A DNA stretch of 64,000 bases, taken from assembly GCA_035998445.1 (NCBI GenBank), contig DASYHQ010000026.1:124001-188000 (forward strand), in the 5' to 3' direction. The position numbers were made by a program, and so were the translations under genes. The notes below the pieces were generated by a model, which saw nothing but the letters and a program-made list of their open reading frames with translations, was not told where the DNA came from and ran no database searches. Source of the DNA: Tepidisphaeraceae bacterium (GTDB lineage: Bacteria > Planctomycetota > Phycisphaerae > Tepidisphaerales > Tepidisphaeraceae). Numbering within the stretch: the first letter of the stretch is position 1; each line of letters starts with the position of its first letter. Shown piece after piece: positions 4,696 through 40,365 of this stretch.

Positions 4696-5151
4696 TTACT
4701 CGGGCAGCGCTTCGATCGTCGGCAGAGCCAAAAGTGCCTCGTAGATCCGGTCGGCCGCGCCGTCGCGGTCCTCGTTGCCGACCACATGGCTGAAGGCGGC
4801 GCCAATGTGATGGCCACCGTCGCACGGCTCGCAGTGTTTCACCGCGTACACCGCCAGCGCGACGGTCGCGAGCTTCAGCTTCAGGAAGAAATGCGTTCCC
4901 GGCGCCAACGGATGATCCATCCACAGCCCGACGCCATGAAGCGAACAGTCGGTCATGGTGGCGTGCTCGAACCCGTCATACAGGCCAGGACCGAACGGCA
5001 TCACCACCACTGCCCTCCGCGCGGCACGCGCCTCGGCGCGTCGATCGCTGACCGCCGCCGCCGGCACAGCGCCGGGGTTGGTTACCGGCCGAGCGGGAGC
5101 GTTGGCGGAAGTCCGATCGATTGAGGGCACGGGGGTGCTGGTGGTCTTCAT
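4696..5151 (-). CDS. PilZ-domain protein
   Basis: 151 residues. The first ~35 are low-complexity, Ala/Pro/Thr rich. An Arg-rich stretch RRAEARAARR (about 37-46) could supply the RxxxR part of a cyclic-di-GMP site. TDCSLHGVGLWM then matches the (D/N)xSxxG motif of PilZ, and the beta-barrel ends at HHIGAAFSHVVG. The likely role is a c-di-GMP responsive adaptor acting on motility or envelope functions; the window also encodes a GGDEF-EAL protein at 19057. The ATG at 5151 has GCAGGACG just upstream. The gene starts 23 bp after the FadL-like gene on the same strand, so co-transcription is likely. Confidence 0.75.
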   Translation of the reverse strand: MKTTSTPVPSIDRTSANAPARPVTNPGAVPAAAVSDRRAEARAARRAVVVMPFGPGLYDGFEHATMTDCSLHGVGLWMDHPLAPGTHFFLKLKLATVALAVYAVKHCEPCDGGHHIGAAFSHVVGNEDRDGAADRIYEALLALPTIEALPE

Positions 5152-5174: not shown

Positions 5175-6395
5175 CTACAGCTTCAGCGAGAACGTCGCCA
5201 TCAGGCCGAACATCTCGTTCTCCCAGCGCCCGTCGACCAGTGGCGAGTACACGCTGCCCGAGACCTCGTGGCTCTCGCGGTGGATGTACTGTCCGGCCAG
5301 GTTGATGCCCCAGCGCTCCGTGCCGTAACCGACGCCAAGGCTGAACAGGTGATAGTTCGAGTCCGGGATGATCGGGGAGAACGTCGCGTCCGGCACGGCG
5401 TTTTCGCTGTAGGCGTAGCCGGCGCGCAGCGTCCAGTTGGTGTTCACCTGATATTCGGTGCCAAAGCGGTACGTGAAGCCACTGTCCCAGTCGGCCGGCA
5501 TCGCCTGGTTGTCGAACGCCGCGTTCGACGACGAGAAGGACAGCTGGTCGACCGTGTCCCAATCCGTCCAGACCACGTCCAGCTCAAGCTTCAACCGCTC
5601 GACCGGCCGGAAGGCGTAACCAACGCCGATGCTCTGCGGAAAGTCCAGCTTCGCCTTCGTTTCGCTCGGGCCCGCGACGGCGTTGCCCGCGACTTCGACC
5701 GAGGCGTCGCCTTCGAATTCCATGTTGAACGGCGAGCGGTAGTAGGCGCCGATCGCGTGGCGCTTGTTGATCTTCCACAGCATGCCCGGCGTCACGCCGA
5801 ACGCGAACGCCTCACCGTCGTAGTCGAACTGGCCTTCCGGCACCGGTGGCGCCGCGACGATCGCGTTGCGCGTTAGGTTCAACCGACCGTAGTAGATGTT
5901 CAGCGCCACGCCGGCGGAGAACTGAGGGGTGAACTGGTAGGCGACGGTGGGCGCAATGTTGATCAGCGCCAGCTGCGCCTCGTTGACGATCAGGCGCAGC
6001 GAGCCGTCGTCGTCCCAGTCTTCGTTGAGACCGAAAACGTTGTTCACGCCAAGGCCGAAGCGCCACTTCTCGGTGCCGAAGTCGCTGGCGATGTACAGGT
6101 GCGGCAGGACGGTGTTCTTCTGCATCTGCTCTTCGGGGCCCGTATCGCGCGTCAGCGTGAACTCGGCGTTCAGCAGGTAGGCGCCCGCCTCGATCTGCGT
6201 GCCCTTCAACTGCGTGAGGCCCGCCGGGTTGTAGTAGATCGCCGACGCGTCGTCCGCCTGCGCGGTGAACGCATCCGCCTGGCCCGCGGCCCGGGCGCCT
6301 TGCATCGGCACCTCGATGCCACCGCCGTGCGATGCTTGGACCACGACCAGGGAGAAACCAATCGCACCGAGAATGAATCGTCGATCAACTCGCAT
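5175..6395 (-). CDS. FadL/OmpP1/TodX family outer-membrane transporter
   Basis: 406 residues from the chosen ATG at 6395, which has a GGAG box 8 bp upstream; an in-frame ATG at 6419 would add eight residues. The signal peptide MRVDRRFILGAIGFSLVVVQ is followed by the family's conserved N-terminal hatch segment: GARAAGQADAFTAQADDASA and IYYNPAGLTQLKGTQ (NPAG motif). Alternating beta-strand sequence continues to a C-terminal strand ending FSLKL. FadL proteins let long-chain fatty acids or other hydrophobic compounds diffuse across the outer membrane. It supports a Gram-negative-type envelope and precedes the PilZ gene by 23 bp. Confidence 0.88.
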   Translation of the reverse strand: MRVDRRFILGAIGFSLVVVQASHGGGIEVPMQGARAAGQADAFTAQADDASAIYYNPAGLTQLKGTQIEAGAYLLNAEFTLTRDTGPEEQMQKNTVLPHLYIASDFGTEKWRFGLGVNNVFGLNEDWDDDGSLRLIVNEAQLALINIAPTVAYQFTPQFSAGVALNIYYGRLNLTRNAIVAAPPVPEGQFDYDGEAFAFGVTPGMLWKINKRHAIGAYYRSPFNMEFEGDASVEVAGNAVAGPSETKAKLDFPQSIGVGYAFRPVERLKLELDVVWTDWDTVDQLSFSSSNAAFDNQAMPADWDSGFTYRFGTEYQVNTNWTLRAGYAYSENAVPDATFSPIIPDSNYHLFSLGVGYGTERWGINLAGQYIHRESHEVSGSVYSPLVDGRWENEMFGLMATFSLKL

Positions 6396-7036
6396 CGCAC
6401 ACACTCCATTGCTTTTCATTCGCCCGCGGACGATGCCCTGCCTTCAGGGTGTTCGGAACCGCCGACCTCGGCTTCATCGGCAGTTGAGCGGGACGACATT
6501 TCCGATTGCGCTGATATTTCCACTTGCCGGACGTGAACGGGATGGAGGGAACAGCGCACAACGTACGCGCGCGGACGCGGCTATGCACAGAGTTATCAAC
6601 AGGTGGGAAGTACCGACAGATCCGATAATGTCGACGGAAACGGTCACACGATTGCGGTTTTATGTGTTCGTGGACAAAACATGACCGCGCGCAGAAAATT
6701 TTCTTTTTTGAGCGTGGCGAAGCAATTAGGATGCGTACTGAGCAGGGATAAAACCAGTTGCAAGCGGGTTTACTCGGACCGTGCTAAACCTTTCATTTGC
6801 AGCGTAAATTGTCCCTCGACCGACAACGGGCAAGTTTGAAACAACCAGTCGTGCAGGCGCCACATTATGGTCGATGTTCGACCCCACGTGGTCTAGATCT
6901 GCGATGCGCGCAACGGACGTCGCCACCGGGATGGGCCGCGGCCCCGTCCGACTCGCGCGTCGCGGGCAACGCTTGCGATGCGCACCCAGAGGCTGCGGCG
7001 CCGTCGCCGTCCATTTGTATTGGGAAGGTACTTATC
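6396..7036. other. Long leader region between divergent genes
   Basis: 641 bp between the FadL-like gene start and the methyltransferase start. I see no convincing gene. The open frame from 6797 runs into the methyltransferase but lacks a start signal of its own. An A/T-rich stretch near 6690-6735 may hold a promoter, but no pair of boxes with normal spacing stands out. Confidence 0.5.
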
Positions 7037-8095
7037 ATGGCCAAAGACGATTACAACGCGATTTCGGCGGCGACGCTCCTGCGCGAGCCCCTGGCGCTCG
7101 GCCTGGGTCAGGCACGGACGGCCGAGTGGAGCGCGCTGATCGAGCGCCCCGCACAGTGGAACGTCGCCAGCGTCGTCACCGCGACCATGCTCGATCGCGT
7201 GCACGCTCGTTTACAGGGCTCGATCGACGAGGTCGGCCCCGCCATGCAAGACTTACTATCCGTTCTCTGGTCGGTCAAATCCGCCAGCGATGCGGACGTC
7301 TGGGCACGCATTTGCCAGCAGTGCCTGGACCACCCCGTGCGGCAGCTGATTCATCAGGACCCCTTCGCCGCCCGCTGCTTTAACAAGCCGCGCGGTTATG
7401 CCGGTGACGCGGTCCTTATCGATTTCCTGTACACGCGCAGCTGCCGGATGTCCGAGGCGGACGACGTGTCGCCCCTGGGCGAGCGCATCTTCGAGTACAC
7501 CCGCGACATCTCCGCCGGTCATGCCGTTCGCCGGCGCCGCGATCTGATGGCGACCATCCTGAACGACCTGTGTGCCACCACCGCCAGCCCGCACGTGCTG
7601 TCGGTGGCCTGCGGTCACCTGCGCGAGGCGTCGCTCTCCAGCGCCGTGCTGGCAGGCAAGACCGGCCGCTTCGTCGCGCTAGACCAGGACGAGCTAAGCC
7701 TGCAGTTGGTCGATCGCGAGGTCGGCCGGCTCGGTGTCACGACGGTCTGCAGTTCCATCCGCGCCATGTTCCGTGGCCCGCTGGCCAGCGAGAAGTTCGA
7801 CCTGATCTACAGCACCGGCCTCTACGACTACCTCGACGACCGCATCGCCGGCAAGCTGACCCAGCGCATGTTCGAGATGCTGAACCCCGGCGGCCGCCTC
7901 GTCGTGGCCAACTTCGCGCCGGAAACGACCTGCGCCGCCTACATGGACGCCCTGCTCGACTGGAAGCTGATCTACCGCAACGCCGACCAGATGATGGCCC
8001 TGGCTGCGACGATTCCCCAAGCGGAAACGCTCGCCCGCAAGGCGTACATCGAAGAGAACGAGAACATCGTCTTCCTGGACATCTGCAAGGCGTAG
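7037..8095 (+). CDS. SAM-dependent methyltransferase, PhcB-like (3-hydroxy fatty acid methyl ester signal type)
   Basis: 352 residues. The ATG at 7037 is preceded by GGGAAGG at 8-9 bp; the frame is open upstream to 6797, but without a ribosome-binding site. A helical N-terminal part leads to FNKPRGYAGDAVLIDFLY near 114, a segment I associate with methyltransferases annotated as making the 3-hydroxypalmitic acid methyl ester signal. The Rossmann methyltransferase domain begins at VLSVACGHLREASL (about 186), with acidic motif FVALDQDE and late strand FDLIYSTGLYDYLDD. Next door are a six-helix sensor kinase and a receiver protein, the arrangement of the proteobacterial phcB-phcS-phcR-phcQ operon. 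The methyltransferase call is firm; the signal-synthase role is inference. Confidence 0.8.
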   Translation: MAKDDYNAISAATLLREPLALGLGQARTAEWSALIERPAQWNVASVVTATMLDRVHARLQGSIDEVGPAMQDLLSVLWSVKSASDADVWARICQQCLDHPVRQLIHQDPFAARCFNKPRGYAGDAVLIDFLYTRSCRMSEADDVSPLGERIFEYTRDISAGHAVRRRRDLMATILNDLCATTASPHVLSVACGHLREASLSSAVLAGKTGRFVALDQDELSLQLVDREVGRLGVTTVCSSIRAMFRGPLASEKFDLIYSTGLYDYLDDRIAGKLTQRMFEMLNPGGRLVVANFAPETTCAAYMDALLDWKLIYRNADQMMALAATIPQAETLARKAYIEENENIVFLDICKA

Positions 8096-8127
8096 CCTCA
8101 ACACGCGCCACAATTCAGTCGATGACA

Positions 8128-8170
8128 GGCGGAAGGTCCGGATAACTCAGGACCTTCCGCCTCGTTGTTG
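8128..8170 (+). terminator. Hairpin terminator after the methyltransferase gene
   Basis: GGCGGAAGGTCC pairs perfectly with GGACCTTCCGCC across a ten-base loop, followed by a weakly T-rich TCGTTGTTGG. It separates the methyltransferase from the kinase, so the two are probably not one simple transcript. Confidence 0.7.
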
Positions 8171-8396
8171 GCGTTCGTAACGCGCAGGATGGCCGCTCGC
8201 ATTGCTGACGCGCGCCTGCGGCCGTCGTCGTTCACGCGGCCACTTTTTGGGCGCAATCCCCTCCCAAACATCCCGACCGAACTAGCCGATAGGTGATGTA
8301 GCCAACGCATGCGCGGCAACGGTCGCGGTGCGTTTGTGAGACGGCGTGCGCGCAACAGGGGGAGATTTTCTGTCAACGTGGAACGATCCGGGACGC

Positions 8397-9788
8397 ATGA
8401 GCGATTCATCCCCGAGCCAACCGCTGCCGACCGCGCTCGTCCAAGCGTACAAGGAGTTCTACGTCGGTCTGCGCATCCGGCAGGCGAAGATCTGCTTCCC
8501 GCTGGCGGTGTTTCTCGTGCCGGCGTGCGTGGGGCTGGACTACTTCGTCTACCCGGACCTGGCGTGGCCGTTCTTCAAGGTGCGGCTGCTCTGTTCGCTG
8601 GCGATGCTGCCGTTCCTGATCTCGTTGTTCAAGAGTTGGGGGCAGCGGAACGTCCGGTGGATCGACAGCATGCCGCTGATCCTGTCGGCGTTCTCGATCT
8701 CGTGGATGATCTACGCCACCGAGGGCGCGCACTCGCCCTACTACGCCGGCCTGAACATCGTGATGGCCGCGGCCATCCTGCTCGTGCCGTACACGTTGGC
8801 CGAAGCATTGGGCATCTGCGGGTTCGTCGTCAGCTCGTACGTGGCCGCGTGCACGCTGCACCACGTGGTGCCGATGACGGCGGGCGTCGAGGCGCCGCCG
8901 TTGAACGTCAGCATCGTCGTCAACAACTTCTACTTCCTGGTGATGACGGCAATGATCGCGATGACCTCCAACCACTTCAACGCCCGCCGGCGGTTCCAAG
9001 AGTTCCGGCTGCGCTACGAGTTGGACCAGAACAACGTCGAACTGGCGACCACCGTGCGCAAGCTGAAGGAGACCGAGGTCCAGCTGGTGCAGTCCGAAAA
9101 GATGAACGCGCTCGGCAAGCTGTCGGCCGGCCTGCTGCACGAGATCAACAACCCGCTGAACTTCACCTTCATGGCCTTGGAATGCGCCGAGCAAGAGGTC
9201 GGCGACAACGAGAGTCTGAAGGAGACGCTGACGGACATCGGCCAGGGCATGGGCCGCATTCGCAGCGTGATCGCCGACCTGCGCGCGTTCGCCTACCCAT
9301 CGAAGCTGACCGACGAGCACGAGTTCAGCCTGGAAGAGGCGTTGACGACCGCCGGCCGGCTGACCGCGCAGGAACTAAAGGACATCCCGATCGACGGCTC
9401 GGCGGTCGTCGGCGTAAACGCGCTGGGCGCCAAGACGCAGGTCATGCACGTCTTCATGAACCTGCTGATCAACGCCGCCCACGCTATTCGCGCCAAGGGC
9501 CCGCTGAACAACCCGCAGATCACCATCACCGCCACTGCGCGCAACGGGCGGCTGGCGGTGTCGGTGCGCGACAACGGCACGGGCGTGTCCAAGGCTGACA
9601 TGCCCCGCGTGTTCGAGCCGTTCTTCACGACGAAGCAGCCCGGCGAGGGCACCGGCCTCGGGTTGAGCATCTGCCAGACGATCATCGAGAACCACGGCGG
9701 ATCGATATCCGTCGCCAGCGAAGTGGGCCAGTGGACCGAGGTCACGTTCGACCTCGGCCTGGCCGCTGCACGGAAGGAAGCGGCATGA
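8397..9788 (+). CDS. Six-helix membrane sensor histidine kinase, PhcS/LqsS-like
   Basis: 463 residues from the ATG at 8397; an in-frame GTG at 8346 would add 17 residues. Six hydrophobic segments (about 25-195) form the membrane sensor, for example ICFPLAVFLVPACVGLDYFV and NFYFLVMTAMIAMT, without a large periplasmic domain. A short coiled coil (about 200-235) leads to the H-box GLLHEINNPLNF with His near 247, N-box NLLINAAHAI near 354, and G-boxes DNGTGV and GEGTGLGLSI. A multi-helix sensor domain fused directly to the kinase core is typical of receptors for hydrophobic autoinducers (CqsS, LqsS, PhcS). Its stop overlaps the next start as ATGA, so the two are translationally coupled. Confidence 0.85.
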   Translation: MSDSSPSQPLPTALVQAYKEFYVGLRIRQAKICFPLAVFLVPACVGLDYFVYPDLAWPFFKVRLLCSLAMLPFLISLFKSWGQRNVRWIDSMPLILSAFSISWMIYATEGAHSPYYAGLNIVMAAAILLVPYTLAEALGICGFVVSSYVAACTLHHVVPMTAGVEAPPLNVSIVVNNFYFLVMTAMIAMTSNHFNARRRFQEFRLRYELDQNNVELATTVRKLKETEVQLVQSEKMNALGKLSAGLLHEINNPLNFTFMALECAEQEVGDNESLKETLTDIGQGMGRIRSVIADLRAFAYPSKLTDEHEFSLEEALTTAGRLTAQELKDIPIDGSAVVGVNALGAKTQVMHVFMNLLINAAHAIRAKGPLNNPQITITATARNGRLAVSVRDNGTGVSKADMPRVFEPFFTTKQPGEGTGLGLSICQTIIENHGGSISVASEVGQWTEVTFDLGLAAARKEAA

Positions 9789-11002
9789 CCGAGACATCCA
9801 AATACGCCAAGTTCGCCGTGCTCTACGTCGACGACGAAGAGCAGGCCCTGAAGTACTTCCAGAAGGGCATCGGCCGCGACTTCCAGGCGCTGACCGCCAA
9901 CAGCGTCGAAGCCGCGCTGGCGATCCTCGAGCGCGACCACCACAAGATCGCCGTCGTGCTGAGCGACCAGCGCATGCCCCGGCAGTGCGGCACCGAACTG
10001 CTGAAGGAGGTCTGCACGCGCTGGCCGCACATCATGCGCATCCTCGTCACCGCATACTCCGAGCTCGACAGCGCGATCGAGGCCGTGAACGGTGGCGCGA
10101 TCTACAAGTACCTCACCAAGCCGGTCGAGTTCGCGAAGATGCGCGAGGTGCTCAAGAGCGCGCTCGACGTCTTCCTGGAGCGCGGCGAGCGCGACCAGCT
10201 GCTGCAGATCAAGATGAGCAGCCTGCGCCGTATGGTCGTCGAGGACCGCGTGCGCAGCCTGAACAACCTCACGTTCGGCCTCACGCATCACCTGCGCAAT
10301 TCCGTGACGGCCATGGGCTGCTTCCTGGAAGAGTTCGACCCGGCCAACACGGGTCCGGCGCCGATGTCGACACCCGAGAGCGCCGAGTGTGCCCGACAGC
10401 TCTGGGCGCTGGCCGTCGACGAGCGCGATCGGTTGATTCAGATGCTCGAGCAGTTCCAGCGTGCCGTGATCGACCCCACCTGCGCGTTCAACGATGAACT
10501 GCAGCCCGACAAGCTGCTGACCGAAACACTTGCCTCCACGCAACCCAACGTCGCGCCCGACCGCCTGGTCGTGAAGGCCGAGGCCGGACTTGGGACCCTG
10601 AAAGGCGACGCGGCGCGCATCACCGATCTGCTCAAGATCCTGGTGACCTACGTCGCGCAGCACGGCAACGCCGCGGGCAAGATCAACGTGACGCTGAGCG
10701 CCGCGGCGCCCCACCGTGGCGCACAGGCGGTTCAGATTCGCATTACCGGCGACGGGCCGGCCTGGACGGATCAGGATGTGGCGACGTTCTTCACGCCGTT
10801 CGCGTTCCCGAAGAACGACCCCTCGGAGCTCGGCCTTGGCCTGCTCAGCACCTTCTCGATCGCCCAGCAACATGGCGGCGATATCCTCGTCCACCGCAGC
10901 GCCCCGCTTGGGCCGGGCTTTGAAGTGCTGCTGCCAGTGAACCCTGCCGAGGTGAAGCGGGCAGACTTGGAACAGAACCTGCTGCAGACGATCTTCACTT
11001 GA
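9785..11002 (+). CDS. Response regulator with C-terminal kinase-like domain, PhcQ/PhcR-like
   Basis: 405 residues. The receiver domain (about 8-130) has VLYVDDEEQA, phospho-acceptor Asp in VVLSDQRMP (about 60), and Lys in YKYLTKPVEF. A linker carries LTFGLTHHLRNSVTAMGCFL near 165, a DHp-like helix in which the usual kinase H-box is replaced by HHLRNS. A reduced HATPase-like domain ends at GLGLLSTFSIAQQHGG. Receivers with this HHLRNS helix are what I associate with PhcQ/PhcR-type regulators. The start overlaps the kinase stop (ATGA), fixing it as the cognate partner. No DNA-binding domain is present, so output is probably through protein contacts. Its last 8 bp overlap the convergent gene. Confidence 0.82.
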   Translation: MTETSKYAKFAVLYVDDEEQALKYFQKGIGRDFQALTANSVEAALAILERDHHKIAVVLSDQRMPRQCGTELLKEVCTRWPHIMRILVTAYSELDSAIEAVNGGAIYKYLTKPVEFAKMREVLKSALDVFLERGERDQLLQIKMSSLRRMVVEDRVRSLNNLTFGLTHHLRNSVTAMGCFLEEFDPANTGPAPMSTPESAECARQLWALAVDERDRLIQMLEQFQRAVIDPTCAFNDELQPDKLLTETLASTQPNVAPDRLVVKAEAGLGTLKGDAARITDLLKILVTYVAQHGNAAGKINVTLSAAAPHRGAQAVQIRITGDGPAWTDQDVATFFTPFAFPKNDPSELGLGLLSTFSIAQQHGGDILVHRSAPLGPGFEVLLPVNPAEVKRADLEQNLLQTIFT

Positions 11003-11990
11003 TCGGCGGCGCAACACCCATGGCTGACTCGATCCGGCTGCGCCACGCGTCGGGATCGGCCGGTGCATCGGGTGCGGGCCCCAACTGCAGCAGCGTGAGC
11101 GTCTCACGCATTTGCGTCGACTCGCCCGGCCGCACGCTTTTCAGCGCGCCCATTTGCTCGGTCTCGGCCCATGGCGCCTTGGCGTCGCCCGATTGAAAGA
11201 ACGTGACGTTGGCGCCGTCTTCGGGATAGGCCGCGTTGGCGTCGAAGTCGACCTTGCTAACAAGCGCCCGATCGCCACGCGCGAAGGCGATCCACCCCGT
11301 GTCGTTGATCACCCCCACCTTCATCGCCGTGCCCGCCAGCGGCGCGGCCGCGTCGGCGGTCACAGCGTCGCGACCGTACTGCAGGCCGGGTTGCGGCAGC
11401 TTCGTCCACCACGAATAGACGAGCCGCCGACGGGCGCGCGGCTTTGTTCCAAAGGGGACGACCATCGTGCCATTACGCGCAAACGCGACCACGCTCCAGG
11501 GCGCCACGACGCGCGGCTCGTCACCGACGTTCTGCAAGGCGTAACCCAACGTCAGCTGTGGCCGCTCGCCCCCCGCCAGTTCAACCGCCACCTCGTATCG
11601 CAGGCCGGCTGCGGGCGCGAGGCGAACCGTGGCACCGCTGGCGGATCGCTTCAGCACCTCGGCCGGCTGCATGCCGACATCGAACGATGTCGGAACCTGG
11701 TCCGGCTCCATGAACGCCAGTCGCACCCCCTTCTGCGCGACGCTGGCGTCGGCCATCAGGGATGTCTCGCCGGTCTTCCGGAATGACAGGACGCGAAACT
11801 CCGGCTCAATGGCAACGAAGGCTTCTGTAGATTCAGCGTTGATCCAGAAACCGCGCGAGCCCTCGTGCTCAATCAATTCGGCGACGCGCGTCGTCGCGCC
11901 ACGGACGACCGGTTGCATGCCGAGCAATGCAACGATCAGCAGGATCAGCACACGCGTTACGCGATTTTCGATTAGCGTCATTCTCTGCAT
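10995..11990 (-). CDS. Secreted DUF4380-like protein
   Basis: 331 residues with an N-terminal signal/anchor (ITRVLIL-type hydrophobic run, then VVRGATTRVAELI). The body is beta-rich and resembles the mutarotase-like DUF4380 fold: a VLSFRKTGETSLMADASVAQ strand pair, LTLGYALQNVGDEPRVVAPW, and late segments NDTGWIAFARGD and AAYPEDGANVTFFQ. No catalytic residues can be assigned. Such proteins often lie beside glycoside hydrolases, as here (next gene upstream on the same strand is a large secreted barrel protein), so carbohydrate handling is a reasonable guess. The family name is from memory of sequence style, not a search. Its 3' end overlaps the convergent regulator gene by 8 bp. Confidence 0.6.
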   Translation of the reverse strand: MQRMTLIENRVTRVLILLIVALLGMQPVVRGATTRVAELIEHEGSRGFWINAESTEAFVAIEPEFRVLSFRKTGETSLMADASVAQKGVRLAFMEPDQVPTSFDVGMQPAEVLKRSASGATVRLAPAAGLRYEVAVELAGGERPQLTLGYALQNVGDEPRVVAPWSVVAFARNGTMVVPFGTKPRARRRLVYSWWTKLPQPGLQYGRDAVTADAAAPLAGTAMKVGVINDTGWIAFARGDRALVSKVDFDANAAYPEDGANVTFFQSGDAKAPWAETEQMGALKSVRPGESTQMRETLTLLQLGPAPDAPADPDAWRSRIESAMGVAPPIK

Positions 11991-12041
11991 CGTGTGGGCT
12001 CGGTTGATGGTGATTAGTGGGTTTCGAGAAGATCGTATGTG

Positions 12042-12075
12042 AAAAGACCTTGCCGCTGAAGCGGCAAGGTCTTTT
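12042..12075 (-). terminator. Strong terminator hairpin, T-run on both strands
   Basis: AAAAGACCTTGCCGCT, loop GAA, then GCGGCAAGGTCTTTT. It lies 31 bp after the stop of the minus-strand gene ending at 12106 and before the start region of the DUF4380-like gene, so each minus-strand gene has its own transcript. Confidence 0.88.
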
Positions 12076-12105
12076 CTATCGGTGATGTTGGCCGAAAAGC
12101 CGGTG

Positions 12106-14352
12106 TTACCGAATGTGGATCGACCGCAGTTCAGCGGCGTCCATCGACAGCTTCAGTTGACCGCCTTCGGCCTGCAACGCCTTGCCCGTCGCGGCATCGG
12201 TCACCTGACCGTTGCCACCGGCGGGCAGCTTCACCACGACCTCGGCCTTCGGGGCCATGCCCGTGTTAGCGATCGCCAGCCAAGTGCCCTGCCCTTCCGT
12301 GCGAATCGAACGGACGACGACCTCGTCGTCGCTCGTCGCGTCGTTCAGCACCTCGCTCGGCAGTGCCGGCAGCGAGAGGTACGCCTGGTTGAACCGCCGG
12401 GCGTAGTGCGGGAAGCCACGGTTGAACTGGTGGCCAGCCAGGTATCCGATGTAAATCGGATCGCCGTTGGCGACGGCCGTCACCTCGGCGTGCATCATGT
12501 GGGCGCCGGTGCGCTCGACGTCCATCACGAAGTACCCGATCGATTCCTCCATCTCGTTCTCGTTCAGGCAGAAGTGCCGCACCATGCCCAGCCCCGCCTT
12601 CGAGCGGTACGCGTCAAGCGTCTCCGGCGAGCTCACGGTGTACATGCGGTTGAACGGGTAGCTGAGGACGACGCCTTCGGTCTCCTTGTAGTTGGCCGGA
12701 TCGGCGCTGGGGACCGAGTGTTCCCACTCCCACTTGCCCCACGTGCCGTGCGGCGCCAGCAGCGCCTTCAGGTAGCGGTTCTCCTCCAGCACCGTGTTGA
12801 ACGCGACCGGGTTGATCTCCAGGCTCTTCGCGCTGGCCAGCTGTTGCCACGCGGCCACGTCGTCGGTGACGACGGTGTTGCCACCGATGCCAACGCCGGG
12901 CTCGCTGGCGTCAGCGGTGAACAGGATCATCGCATCCTCGTTGCCAGCTTGGCGCAGATGGTCGCGCAGCGCGACGAGGAACTTCTGCCGCTGGTCGTTC
13001 CACCAGCCGATGTACTGCTCGTACATCTCGCCGCGCTGCCGCAGTTGCTCGCGCGACACCGACTTGCCGTTCATCACGTCAGTCGAGAACTTCTTCAGTG
13101 CCGAATCGGAGAAGCTGACCGGCATGTGGCTGGGCCGCGGGCGGATCCACGCGCCGGTGAAGGGCATGACGTCCTTCCAGCGGTTGATCGTGAGGTCGAG
13201 CACCTTCTTGGCATCTTCCAGAATTTCCGGCTCGGTCACGTCGGCGTAGGCCTTCTCGCTCCAGGTGATGTGCGTGTAGGCCTCCTCGTCGCTCAGCGGG
13301 CGGGCGAACTTCCTGGTGCCCGGGCTGTTGCCCCCGACGCTGCCGGCGTACTCGTAGTACGGCAGGACGGTGAAGTCGTAGCCGCCGTCCTTCAGCATCT
13401 TCAGCACGTTCTCCCAGCGCTTGGGCGTCTTGCTGGCGTTCATCCAGTTTGGCCCGCCGGGCGTGGTGTCCCAGCCCTGGTTGTGCCCGAATTCGAGCAT
13501 GTCGATCGTATAGGTGTTCATGCCGAGGAACTGCATGAGGTTGGCCTTGGCGGCGTACCAGTCGACGTCGTTCTTGAAGCCCGGATCGTCACCGTTCACG
13601 ATGCCGTCGCTCATCTCCTCCCGCCAGAACAGGTGCCGCCGGGGCAGATCGCCGGGCGGGTAGTTGATCGACAGCTTCAGCTTGCTCGGGTCGACGACCT
13701 CGTACAGCGCGATGCGCGAGAACGCCGCCCCTTCCGACATCGGCGCGTTCTTTGCCTTCCATTGCGAGATGATCACCGGCACACCGTCGGCCGGCGTCAC
13801 GTCGCGCTTGATCGGTTGGTCGCGCGGGACCTTCAGGCTGAACGATTTGTCCTGCAGGTAGAACAACATTTGAAACTGCTCGTGCTTGCCCGACAGCGGG
13901 TACTGGAGCGATTCGGGGTTCGAGTGCACGTACCGCCCGCGCAACACGTCGCCGACGGTGGAACCGGTGTACAGGCCGCGCGAGGTCTCCGAGGCGCGGT
14001 TGTGGACGAACATCGTGCGCGGCGCGTCCTCCGGATACTCGACCTGCAGCACGTACGCGCCGTTGGCCTTCAGCCCCATGCCCTTGCCAAGGCGGTAGGT
14101 CACGTAGACGCCGACGTCGTTGGTGTTGGGGATGACGCGCGTGGGCTTGCCCAGCACGTCGCGCACCTCGCTGACGCCCTGCTTCGATTCGGTGAACGCG
14201 TGCGTGTCCTGTTCCTGCCCGACGACCACCTCATCGATGAGACGAAGTTCGCCGAACATCTCGCGTGAGGCGTCGGCCTGTTGCGCGCGGCTGACACCAC
14301 CGGTGGAGACCACGACCAGGACCGCCAGGAGACGCAGGTACGGTTTCGACAT
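12106..14352 (-). CDS. Large secreted protein, probable glycoside-hydrolase-like barrel, family not recognised
   Basis: 748 residues from the ATG at 14352, which has AAAGG 8 bp upstream (an earlier ATG at 14367 lacks one). Signal peptide MSKPYLRLLAVLVVVSTGGV then VSRAQQ. Residues ~30-230 are beta-rich, with GVYVTYRLGKGMGLKANGAY. The middle (~260-640) looks like a TIM barrel: LMQFLGMNTYTIDMLEFGHN, FTVLPYYEYAGSVGG, FTGAWIRPRPSHMP, DAMILFTADASEPGVG, and HFCLNENEMEE near 600 as a candidate acidic site. A C-terminal beta-sandwich (WLAIANTGMAPKAEVVVKLP) ends at RSIHIR. I cannot name a CAZy family. Divergent from the LacI regulator gene, which may control it. Confidence 0.75.
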   Translation of the reverse strand: MSKPYLRLLAVLVVVSTGGVSRAQQADASREMFGELRLIDEVVVGQEQDTHAFTESKQGVSEVRDVLGKPTRVIPNTNDVGVYVTYRLGKGMGLKANGAYVLQVEYPEDAPRTMFVHNRASETSRGLYTGSTVGDVLRGRYVHSNPESLQYPLSGKHEQFQMLFYLQDKSFSLKVPRDQPIKRDVTPADGVPVIISQWKAKNAPMSEGAAFSRIALYEVVDPSKLKLSINYPPGDLPRRHLFWREEMSDGIVNGDDPGFKNDVDWYAAKANLMQFLGMNTYTIDMLEFGHNQGWDTTPGGPNWMNASKTPKRWENVLKMLKDGGYDFTVLPYYEYAGSVGGNSPGTRKFARPLSDEEAYTHITWSEKAYADVTEPEILEDAKKVLDLTINRWKDVMPFTGAWIRPRPSHMPVSFSDSALKKFSTDVMNGKSVSREQLRQRGEMYEQYIGWWNDQRQKFLVALRDHLRQAGNEDAMILFTADASEPGVGIGGNTVVTDDVAAWQQLASAKSLEINPVAFNTVLEENRYLKALLAPHGTWGKWEWEHSVPSADPANYKETEGVVLSYPFNRMYTVSSPETLDAYRSKAGLGMVRHFCLNENEMEESIGYFVMDVERTGAHMMHAEVTAVANGDPIYIGYLAGHQFNRGFPHYARRFNQAYLSLPALPSEVLNDATSDDEVVVRSIRTEGQGTWLAIANTGMAPKAEVVVKLPAGGNGQVTDAATGKALQAEGGQLKLSMDAAELRSIHIR

Positions 14353-14749
14353 AAGTTGACCTTTCATTGAAGTGTAGGGCAGCGCGTTGCTGACAAGCGA
14401 CGTTAGCCGTGCCGATCATGCCCGTGAACGGCTGGCAGAAACCTCGAATTGTCCCACGAAGTGGACCGCAACCCGCGGCCTCGCGGATGGCTATAAAAGC
14501 GTCACCCATTACCACGTACCGGGGACACGTTTGCAGCCGATCCTAAGGGAAGTCCCTGATGCAGTGCAACAGTTTCGTCACATTCTAAACAGGAAGCTGC
14601 TTGTACCGTGCATACCACGCGTCGGCTAAGCCGTTGCAGAAAAAATTTGGCCGCCGATTGGCCTGATTGGAAAACGTGGGGTATTATCTGCAACAGTTGC
14701 GTCATGTTGGGCCACCACCACTTCTCTGGCCCGGACGCGCAGCTTTTGT
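14353..14749. promoter_or_regulatory. Divergent control region with repeated operator-like 20-mers
   Basis: Two near-identical 20-mers lie at 14565-14584 and 14689-14708 (TGCAACAGTT, T or G, CGTCA, then CATT or TGTT; 17 of 20 match). The second contains the odd palindrome GCAACAGTTGC and sits just after a promoter-like pair TTGGCC (14658-14663), 18 bp, TATTAT (14682-14687), upstream of the LacI-type gene. A separate small palindrome AGGGA-AG-TCCCT is at 14546-14557. Plausible sites for autoregulation and for control of the divergent secreted protein; assignment is inference. Confidence 0.45.
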
Positions 14750-38153: not shown

Positions 38154-38235
38154 AAACCTTGGGGATTTCCCCGCAACACTGCCTGGCGAGAAGCTGCGCC
38201 TGCCTATCTACGTGTATAATGACGTCACCTCTCTC

Positions 38236-40365
38236 ATGGACGACGTTGTGAACGCTATGCTCAGCCTGCTGACCGCACCACTGGCGCTCTCGATGGGCCC
38301 GTCTGAACTGACGGTCCTGCTGGCCACGGTGCTCGTATGCCTTGGGGTGGTTCGATGGTGGGACCGGTGGGTTGCGCAGGAACGTTCTCACCGGCGCAGC
38401 GCGACGGTTACGCCGCCATCGGCCACCGTACCCTCGGCCCCGGCGCCGGCGGAATCGATCGCCGGCCGGGAGCTGGAACGGCTGCGCGCCGCCATGTCGG
38501 GCATCGCCAACGGGGTCGTGGTCGCCGACAGCAAGGGGAACCTGATCGACTGGAACCCCGCGGCGCTGCGGTTGCACGGCTACGCGTCGATCGACGAGGT
38601 GCGGCATCACGTGGCCCACTTCGTCGACACGTTCGTGTTGGCCGAGCCGGGCGGTCGGGTCCTCAGCGTCCCCGAATGGCCAATCCCTCGCATGATTCGA
38701 GGCGAGCACGTCGATAACGTCGAGTTGCTGGTGCGGCGCACCGACACCCAACAGGAATGGTTCATCAACTACACCGGCGCCATCGTGCGCAGCCCATTGG
38801 GCGAGATCGAGTTGCTCGTGCTGACGCTGCAGGACACCACCGAGGCGCGCCGCGCCGCCAAGGCGCTTCGCGAGAGCGAGGAGCGCTTTCGGCAGTTGGC
38901 CGACGCGATGCCCCAGATCGTCTGGACGGCCGGCGGCGATGGTCAGATCGACTACTACAACCGCCGCGGGCTCGAGTTGATCGGTGAGCCGAACGCCAGC
39001 AGTAGCCGCTGGGACGCGTTGTTTCACCCGGACGACGTCGCGCCAACGCATGCGATCTGGAGCGAGTCGATGCGCACGGGCAATGCGTTCGAGCACGAGT
39101 ACCGCCTGCAGGACGCTCGCAGCGGTGAGTTCCGCTGGTGGTTGGGCCGTGCGGTGCCAGTGACGGACGACGAGCGCAACATCGTCCGCTGGATCGGCAC
39201 CAGCACCGACATTCACGAACTGAAGCTCGCGGGCGATGCCATTCGTAACGGCTCGACACTGCTGCGCACGCTGATCGAGGGCATTATCGATCCCGTCTAC
39301 ATCAAGGATGTGGACGGCCGGTACCTGCTGGTGAACGCCGCCCTGGCCAGCGCGATGAACCGCACGCCAGAGGAGATCGTCGGCAACGACGACATCACGC
39401 TGCTCGGCCCGGAGGTCGGTGGGATCGTGCGCAACAGCGACCGGCGCGTGCTGGCGTCGGAGGGCACGCAGACGTACGAGGAGACGGTCACGACGAACGG
39501 CCGGACCTTCCACTTCCTGGAGACGAAATCCCCCCACCGCGACGCCGGCGGGCGCGTCGTGGGGTTGATCGGCATCTCGCGCGACATCTCGGCTCACAAA
39601 CAGTCGGAAGAGCGATGGCACGAGCAGCAGGCGCAGCTGGCCCATCTGGAACGCGTACGCACGGTCGGCCAGATGGCGTCGGGCCTCGCGCACGAGCTGA
39701 ACCAGCCGCTGGGCGCAATTGCGAACTACACCGAGGCCTGCCGCGTACTGCTTGAGCGTGGCAACCTCAGTGCACCACAACTGGCCGACGCGCTGGCGGC
39801 CGTGGTGTCGGAAACCGCGCGGGCAGGCGAGATCATCCGCCGGTTGCGCAGCTTCGTGAAGAAGCAACGGCCGCACGGCCAACCGGTGGACATCAACGCG
39901 ACCGTTCGCGATTCGGCCAGCATCATGTCCTACGACCTGCGTACCGCAGGCGTGCAACCGCAGTGGCAGTTGGATTGCACGCTCGGTCCGGTGTTGGCCG
40001 ACCACGTGCAGATCGAGCAGGTGTTGATCAACCTGATGCGCAACGCGATCGACGCGATGCGCGACAACGAGACGCCGGAACGACGGCTGATCGTCCGGAC
40101 GGCGTGCAACGGCCAAGGGAAGGTGCGCGTGTCTATATCGGACAACGGCAGCGGGGTGCCGGCCGACCAACTGCCACGCATCTTCGACGCGTTTTACACG
40201 ACCAAGTCCAACGGTATGGGCATCGGGCTGGCCCTGTGCCGAACCATCATCGAAGAGCACGGTGGTGAGATCGCCGCCGAGCGCAACCCCGACCGTGGCA
40301 TGACCTTCTCGTTCACCCTGCGACCCACGCGCCCGGTGACCGACGTTCAGCAGGAGGCTGTATGA
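38236..40365 (+). CDS. PAS-domain sensor histidine kinase (FixL-like)
   Basis: 709 residues from the ATG at 38236; an upstream GTG (38212) and a later ATG (38257) are alternatives. One N-terminal transmembrane helix (SELTVLLATVLVCLGVVRWW), then three PAS domains (about 80-210, 215-340, 345-470). The kinase core has H-box MASGLAHELNQPLGAIANYT, N-box VLINLMRNAIDAM, and G-boxes ISDNGSGVP and GMGIGLALCR. The AHELNQPL H-box is typical of FixL/DctB-like HPK4 kinases. Its stop overlaps the start of a FixJ-like regulator (ATGA). No haem-PAS His could be assigned, so the signal is unknown. Confidence 0.92.
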   Translation: MDDVVNAMLSLLTAPLALSMGPSELTVLLATVLVCLGVVRWWDRWVAQERSHRRSATVTPPSATVPSAPAPAESIAGRELERLRAAMSGIANGVVVADSKGNLIDWNPAALRLHGYASIDEVRHHVAHFVDTFVLAEPGGRVLSVPEWPIPRMIRGEHVDNVELLVRRTDTQQEWFINYTGAIVRSPLGEIELLVLTLQDTTEARRAAKALRESEERFRQLADAMPQIVWTAGGDGQIDYYNRRGLELIGEPNASSSRWDALFHPDDVAPTHAIWSESMRTGNAFEHEYRLQDARSGEFRWWLGRAVPVTDDERNIVRWIGTSTDIHELKLAGDAIRNGSTLLRTLIEGIIDPVYIKDVDGRYLLVNAALASAMNRTPEEIVGNDDITLLGPEVGGIVRNSDRRVLASEGTQTYEETVTTNGRTFHFLETKSPHRDAGGRVVGLIGISRDISAHKQSEERWHEQQAQLAHLERVRTVGQMASGLAHELNQPLGAIANYTEACRVLLERGNLSAPQLADALAAVVSETARAGEIIRRLRSFVKKQRPHGQPVDINATVRDSASIMSYDLRTAGVQPQWQLDCTLGPVLADHVQIEQVLINLMRNAIDAMRDNETPERRLIVRTACNGQGKVRVSISDNGSGVPADQLPRIFDAFYTTKSNGMGIGLALCRTIIEEHGGEIAAERNPDRGMTFSFTLRPTRPVTDVQQEAV

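Follow-up and report, generated by a model that had tools for sequence, protein, structure and literature searches.

Does the Phc quorum-sensing system, studied so far in the Burkholderiales and mainly as a virulence switch of Ralstonia, also occur in planctomycetes, and which of its parts are present there? The question is raised by a 64,000-nucleotide stretch from a Tepidisphaeraceae bacterium (the window; assembly of 5.8 Mb, 95.5% complete), in which an S-adenosylmethionine (SAM)-dependent methyltransferase, a membrane-bound histidine kinase and a receiver protein are encoded one after the other on the forward strand. A preliminary description took these genes for a Phc-like cassette, that is, a PhcB signal synthase, a PhcS sensor kinase and a PhcR/PhcQ-type regulator. 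We find that the kinase and the regulator very probably belong to the Phc lineage, since they show full-length similarity, grouping in trees and a gene order conserved in relatives; this part of the proposal stands, but the methyltransferase is not PhcB. No report joining PhcB, PhcS and planctomycetes was found in the open-licence literature.

In Ralstonia the genes lie in the order phcB-phcS-phcR-phcQ and encode a PhcB of 464-468 amino acids (aa), a PhcR (receiver plus kinase) of 368-374 aa and a PhcQ of 336-337 aa (PMC8578825). PhcS is autophosphorylated at H230 (PMC11960443), PhcQ works through binding PhcA (PMC13320629), and function is affected by the mutations PhcB R22C and PhcQ R154C (PMC6989110); for the Phc signal, PhcS H230 and outputs without DNA binding, our sources are PMC8578825, PMC11960443 and PMC13320629. 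Operons of Cupriavidus, Paraburkholderia and Janthinobacterium served as yardsticks in place of the sequences of Ralstonia solanacearum itself. These operons can stand for the characterised system because their lengths (PhcB 467, PhcR 377 and PhcQ 335 aa) and key residues (H-box His at position 233 in C. necator; R22 invariant in 4 of 4 long methyltransferases aligned) agree with the published ones. When named genomes were scanned with a PhcB-like alignment, 80 Burkholderiales-type loci came up, and the exact order PhcB, PhcS, PhcR, PhcQ is present in 69 of the 81 loci that these form together with a P. graminis plasmid. At the place of PhcR, Paraburkholderia encodes a shortened receiver protein (L008, 9169-9573, annotated as 134 aa; L043, 12628-13158), and no PhcR was seen at the Janthinobacterium locus L064.

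The kinase and the regulator

The kinase gene (8397-9788, 463 aa) has the Pfam domains HisKA and HATPase_c and can be aligned from end to end, through the membrane sensor, with PhcS of Cupriavidus and Paraburkholderia (approximately 36-41% identity over approximately 440 aa, E values of 1e-81 to 1e-101). Its multi-helix membrane sensor (aa 1-206; 8397..9014, +) belongs to no Pfam family; Pfam on the sensor alone returned nothing convincing, and a fold search with the kinase model placed ordinary kinase cores on top and yielded nothing informative for the sensor. Homologues of this sensor adjoin PhcB elsewhere, and residues L47, Y52, P53, R63, G110, S113 and G118 are kept in 22 of 22 planctomycete and Burkholderiales sensors. 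The kinase core (9015..9788, +) comprises a coiled coil, the H-box and the HATPase domain, and the H-box His248, which corresponds to position 233 in C. necator, is invariant across 25 sequences. In an AlphaFold2 model (mean predicted local distance difference test, pLDDT, of 82) the sensor is all-helical and its last helix, residues 171-267, continues without a break into the helix of the H-box and His248, which bears out the earlier remark that the membrane helices are joined directly to the kinase H-box. Judged by its sequence, the window kinase is PhcS.

The kinase stop overlaps the start of the receiver protein in an ATGA at 9785-9788. The receiver protein (9785-11002, +, 405 aa) has the Pfam domains Response_reg and HATPase_c and contains LTHHLRNS; the HHLRNS motif, the ATGA overlap and FNKPRGYAGDAVLIDF in the methyltransferase had all been described before, and open reading frames (ORFs) and Pfam agree with that description of the three genes. 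Asp61, Thr89 and Lys112 are present in the receiver domain, which is 39-46% identical to those of PhcR and PhcQ. A linker in the planctomycete regulators (RERDQLLxEKL) matches PhcQ (hhalign E 5.5e-10), whereas the remainder does not align with PhcQ; the C-terminal part resembles the kinase regions of PhcS (E 1e-11) and PhcR (E 3e-6). This histidine-kinase domain is degenerate: THHLRNS stands at the H-box of the window protein and relatives have NHIRNS, YRLRNS or NRIRNS there, with the His not conserved, PhcR keeps HELN at this place, and the window regulator does not have the canonical combination of a HELN H-box and a G1 box.

The regulator is encoded directly after PhcS and has no DNA-binding domain, as expected of the PhcR/PhcQ family to which it had been assigned, but it is not simply either protein; from the alignments, a single planctomycete regulator seems to correspond to both. 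The lack of a DNA-binding domain and the dead-looking kinase domain, together with the mode of action of PhcQ on PhcA, suggest that it likely acts through binding a partner. PhcA is not universal in planctomycetes, since no LysR protein whatever was seen in two relatives with complete operons, G004 and G014; the window genome has two LysR matches.

Phc operons in other planctomycetes

In 12 other planctomycetes PhcB is encoded in one tight operon together with a hybrid PhcS and a receiver-kinase protein; the operon is complete in G004, G014 and G017, which are of the same family as the window, and in G288, G244, G324, G330, G372, G098, G152 and G159, and cut by a contig end in G196. Within a draw of 392 planctomycete genomes PhcB was detected in nine (E below 1e-119), and in all nine its immediate neighbour is the PhcS sensor (hypergeometric chance approximately 1e-16). 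By comparison, 299 genomes drawn from the phylum to which the Cupriavidus genome belongs yielded PhcB in three, that Cupriavidus included, so PhcB is not rarer in planctomycetes than in this sample. Contamination is an unlikely source, since G372 has only two contigs. The existence of a Phc signalling lineage in the Planctomycetota is thereby supported, and the complete operons, which occur in several families, make lipid methyl-ester signalling in the phylum directly testable.

The usual planctomycete PhcS has the layout sensor-kinase1-receiver-kinase2 and a length of approximately 860-940 aa, and the accompanying PhcB ORFs are 467-500 aa long. The window kinase core is 58% identical to the second kinase of G004 as against 30% to the first. 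Its coil (VRKLKETEVQLVQSEKMNALGKL / RKLKETEVQLVQSEKMNALGKL) matches the start of the G004 second kinase, and QEFRLR, just before the coil, matches the end of the G004 sensor. In the kinase-core tree the window and the G004 second kinase group together (98/90) within a PhcS/second-kinase clade (99/98), and kinase 1 stands apart (97/95). The simplest account of these matches would be that approximately 420 residues, the inner kinase-receiver unit, were lost from a hybrid kinase in the window lineage, with a domain swap as a conceivable alternative origin of the architecture. The hybrid forms are possibly ancestral and may account for the presence of two odd regulators, PhcR and PhcQ, in Ralstonia. 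No convincing flank synteny with the PhcB-bearing relatives was found beyond the cassette, and in the window no phcB shares an operon with phcS and the regulator.

Two further arrangements were observed. Locus L200 (6968-10577, -) of G403, a single contig, encodes a hybrid PhcS and a 339-aa receiver protein, and the G403 genome has no PhcB or short methyltransferase match; it likely carries an orphan Phc receptor. In five genomes of the planctomycete family f73 (L205, L206, L207, L209 and L210), a more distant arrangement combines methyltransferases of approximately 510-540 aa with convergent hybrid kinases having weakly PhcS-like sensors.

The methyltransferase and its FadL neighbour

The methyltransferase (7037..8095, +, 352 aa; Pfam Methyltransf_25) shares the motifs KPxGYAGD and GL(F/Y)DYL with PhcB but is only 25-30% identical to it and is missing the PhcB N-terminal domain (FRNSQG...YNPY), for which Pfam gave nothing convincing. 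It falls in a clade of short methyltransferases (98/99), distantly related to PhcB and separate from the PhcB clade (100/97), whose other members come from Rhizobium and Roseateles plasmids and from the planctomycetes G020, G103, G084, G089 and G420 (approximately 34-43% identity to the window). This placement rules it out as a PhcB orthologue, although it is a candidate signal synthase. PhcB is absent from the assembled window genome, and no remnant of it lies elsewhere in the 64-kb window. A profile search of the PDB found nothing closer than remote methyltransferases, phosphoethanolamine methyltransferases among them. The comparison with PhcB, PhcS and PhcQ/PhcR that had been proposed came out in favour of the kinase and the regulator and not of the methyltransferase.

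Divergent from the methyltransferase lies a gene for a FadL/OmpP1/TodX-type outer-membrane channel (5175..6419, -; PF03349, E 1.8e-59), a probable partner. The same divergent pair occurs in G019 (locus L029), with 54% identity for FadL and 48% for the methyltransferase. In rhizobia FadL is linked to extracellular long-chain acyl-homoserine lactones (PMC9938287), and on that ground a hydrophobic signal would fit the pairing of FadL and methyltransferase, although lipid metabolism would fit it too. At locus L028 (6373-9469) of G020 a short-clade methyltransferase adjoins genes that resemble by eye a fatty-acid desaturase and a di-iron enzyme, which suggests lipid modification.

Elsewhere in the window, a PilZ-domain gene (4699-5151, -; Pfam E 1.3e-6) lies two genes upstream of the methyltransferase. 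Downstream of the cassette, the opposite strand of 10998-14367 holds a weak, below-cut-off DUF4380 match and a protein of 753 aa with no Pfam family. A multi-PAS histidine kinase at 38212-40365 (+) is related to the kinase-regulator pair of locus L030 in G020.

Source of the signal and comparison with known systems

We prefer to read the locus, with a probability of roughly 0.55, as a derived module of PhcS and a PhcR/PhcQ-type regulator in which PhcB has been lost and a methyltransferase of another clade supplies a methylated acyl ligand. The ancestor would have had a complete planctomycete operon of PhcB, hybrid PhcS and regulator; in the window lineage the hybrid kinase would have lost its internal kinase-receiver unit, PhcB would have been lost, and the FadL-paired methyltransferase directly upstream, of the same superfamily, probably took over the supply of ligand. 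A diffusible acyl methyl-ester-like molecule is predicted to bind the membrane sensor, from which the signal would reach the dimerisation helix along the unbroken last helix; His248 would be phosphorylated, the phosphate would be transferred to Asp61 of the regulator, and the regulator would then bind a partner in the manner of PhcQ. By descent, a methylated lipid-type signal is somewhat better than an even bet; the neighbouring methyltransferase as its source is plausible but unproven, at a little short of even odds.

Several observations weigh against this reading. A gap of 301 bases separates the methyltransferase from the kinase and contains a strong hairpin (8120..8170, +; -39 kcal/mol, z -5.3). 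It had been described as a terminator between synthase and receptor, but it has no T-run after it and a terminator scan did not call it, so it is at most a possible terminator. A short-clade methyltransferase was never found beside PhcS in the other sampled planctomycetes, the pairing being seen in the window genome only; the neighbourhood survey upheld the operon in 12 relatives but not this methyltransferase as a member of it. The deep branches of the kinase-core tree are weakly supported, and the structure model of the methyltransferase (pLDDT 58) is not usable.

The main rival is an orphan Phc receptor, in which the PhcS-regulator pair senses signals from other bacteria, or some different cue, while the methyltransferase and FadL serve an unrelated function with lipids or hydrophobic compounds. 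We consider this possible but on balance the less probable account. The absence of PhcB from the genome, the gap with its hairpin, a conserved methyltransferase neighbour that is FadL and not PhcS, and the example of G403 all speak for it; yet the methyltransferase sits on the same strand at the position that PhcB holds in relatives and belongs to the PhcB superfamily, with both shared motifs, and its placement there by chance seems unlikely. The same position and superfamily, and the fact that at E 1e-5 it matches nothing but PhcB in three Burkholderiales genomes, would also suit a true PhcB-PhcS-regulator operon producing a 3-hydroxy fatty acid methyl ester. With a separate, well-supported clade, low identity, no PhcB N-terminal domain and 352 aa against 464-468 aa (PMC8578825), that is very improbable, and the claim that the methyltransferase is the PhcB synthase, contradicted also by its clade's separation from PhcS in other planctomycetes, falls.

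A generic two-component pair beside a generic methyltransferase, with no cell-cell signalling, would fit the domain names, as Pfam and NCBIfam return only generic ones, but it has been largely refuted by the full-length PhcS match including the sensor, and the Phc gene order in relatives and the association of sensor and PhcB in nine of nine genomes leave it hardly any room. A bolder version of the preferred reading, offered tentatively, is that the receptor changed its synthase: a PhcS lineage that lost PhcB and the inner relay may have re-paired with a non-orthologous methyltransferase and FadL, giving a new signal molecule in an old receptor family. A PhcS sensor that outlives its synthase, as is suggested here, would be a test case for such partner change or for eavesdropping.

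Multi-helix membrane sensors on a kinase are also found in LqsS and CqsS; their partner synthases LqsA and CqsA are not known to be methyltransferases. Unlike the window gene, the other short-clade methyltransferases do not adjoin PhcS, and those of Rhizobium and Roseateles adjoin GGDEF/EAL genes. With the Phc systems of Ralstonia, Cupriavidus and Paraburkholderia the window shares a multi-helix PhcS sensor with the H-box directly after it, a receiver protein without a DNA-binding domain, the order PhcS-then-regulator and a KPxGYAGD methyltransferase upstream; it differs from them in that this methyltransferase is short, of another clade and beyond a hairpin, in a genome without PhcB, and in having one regulator with a degenerate kinase domain in place of two. 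The complete planctomycete operons hold orthologues of the window's sensor and regulator, and their second kinase is the orthologue of its kinase core, but the window is without the inner kinase-receiver unit and PhcB.

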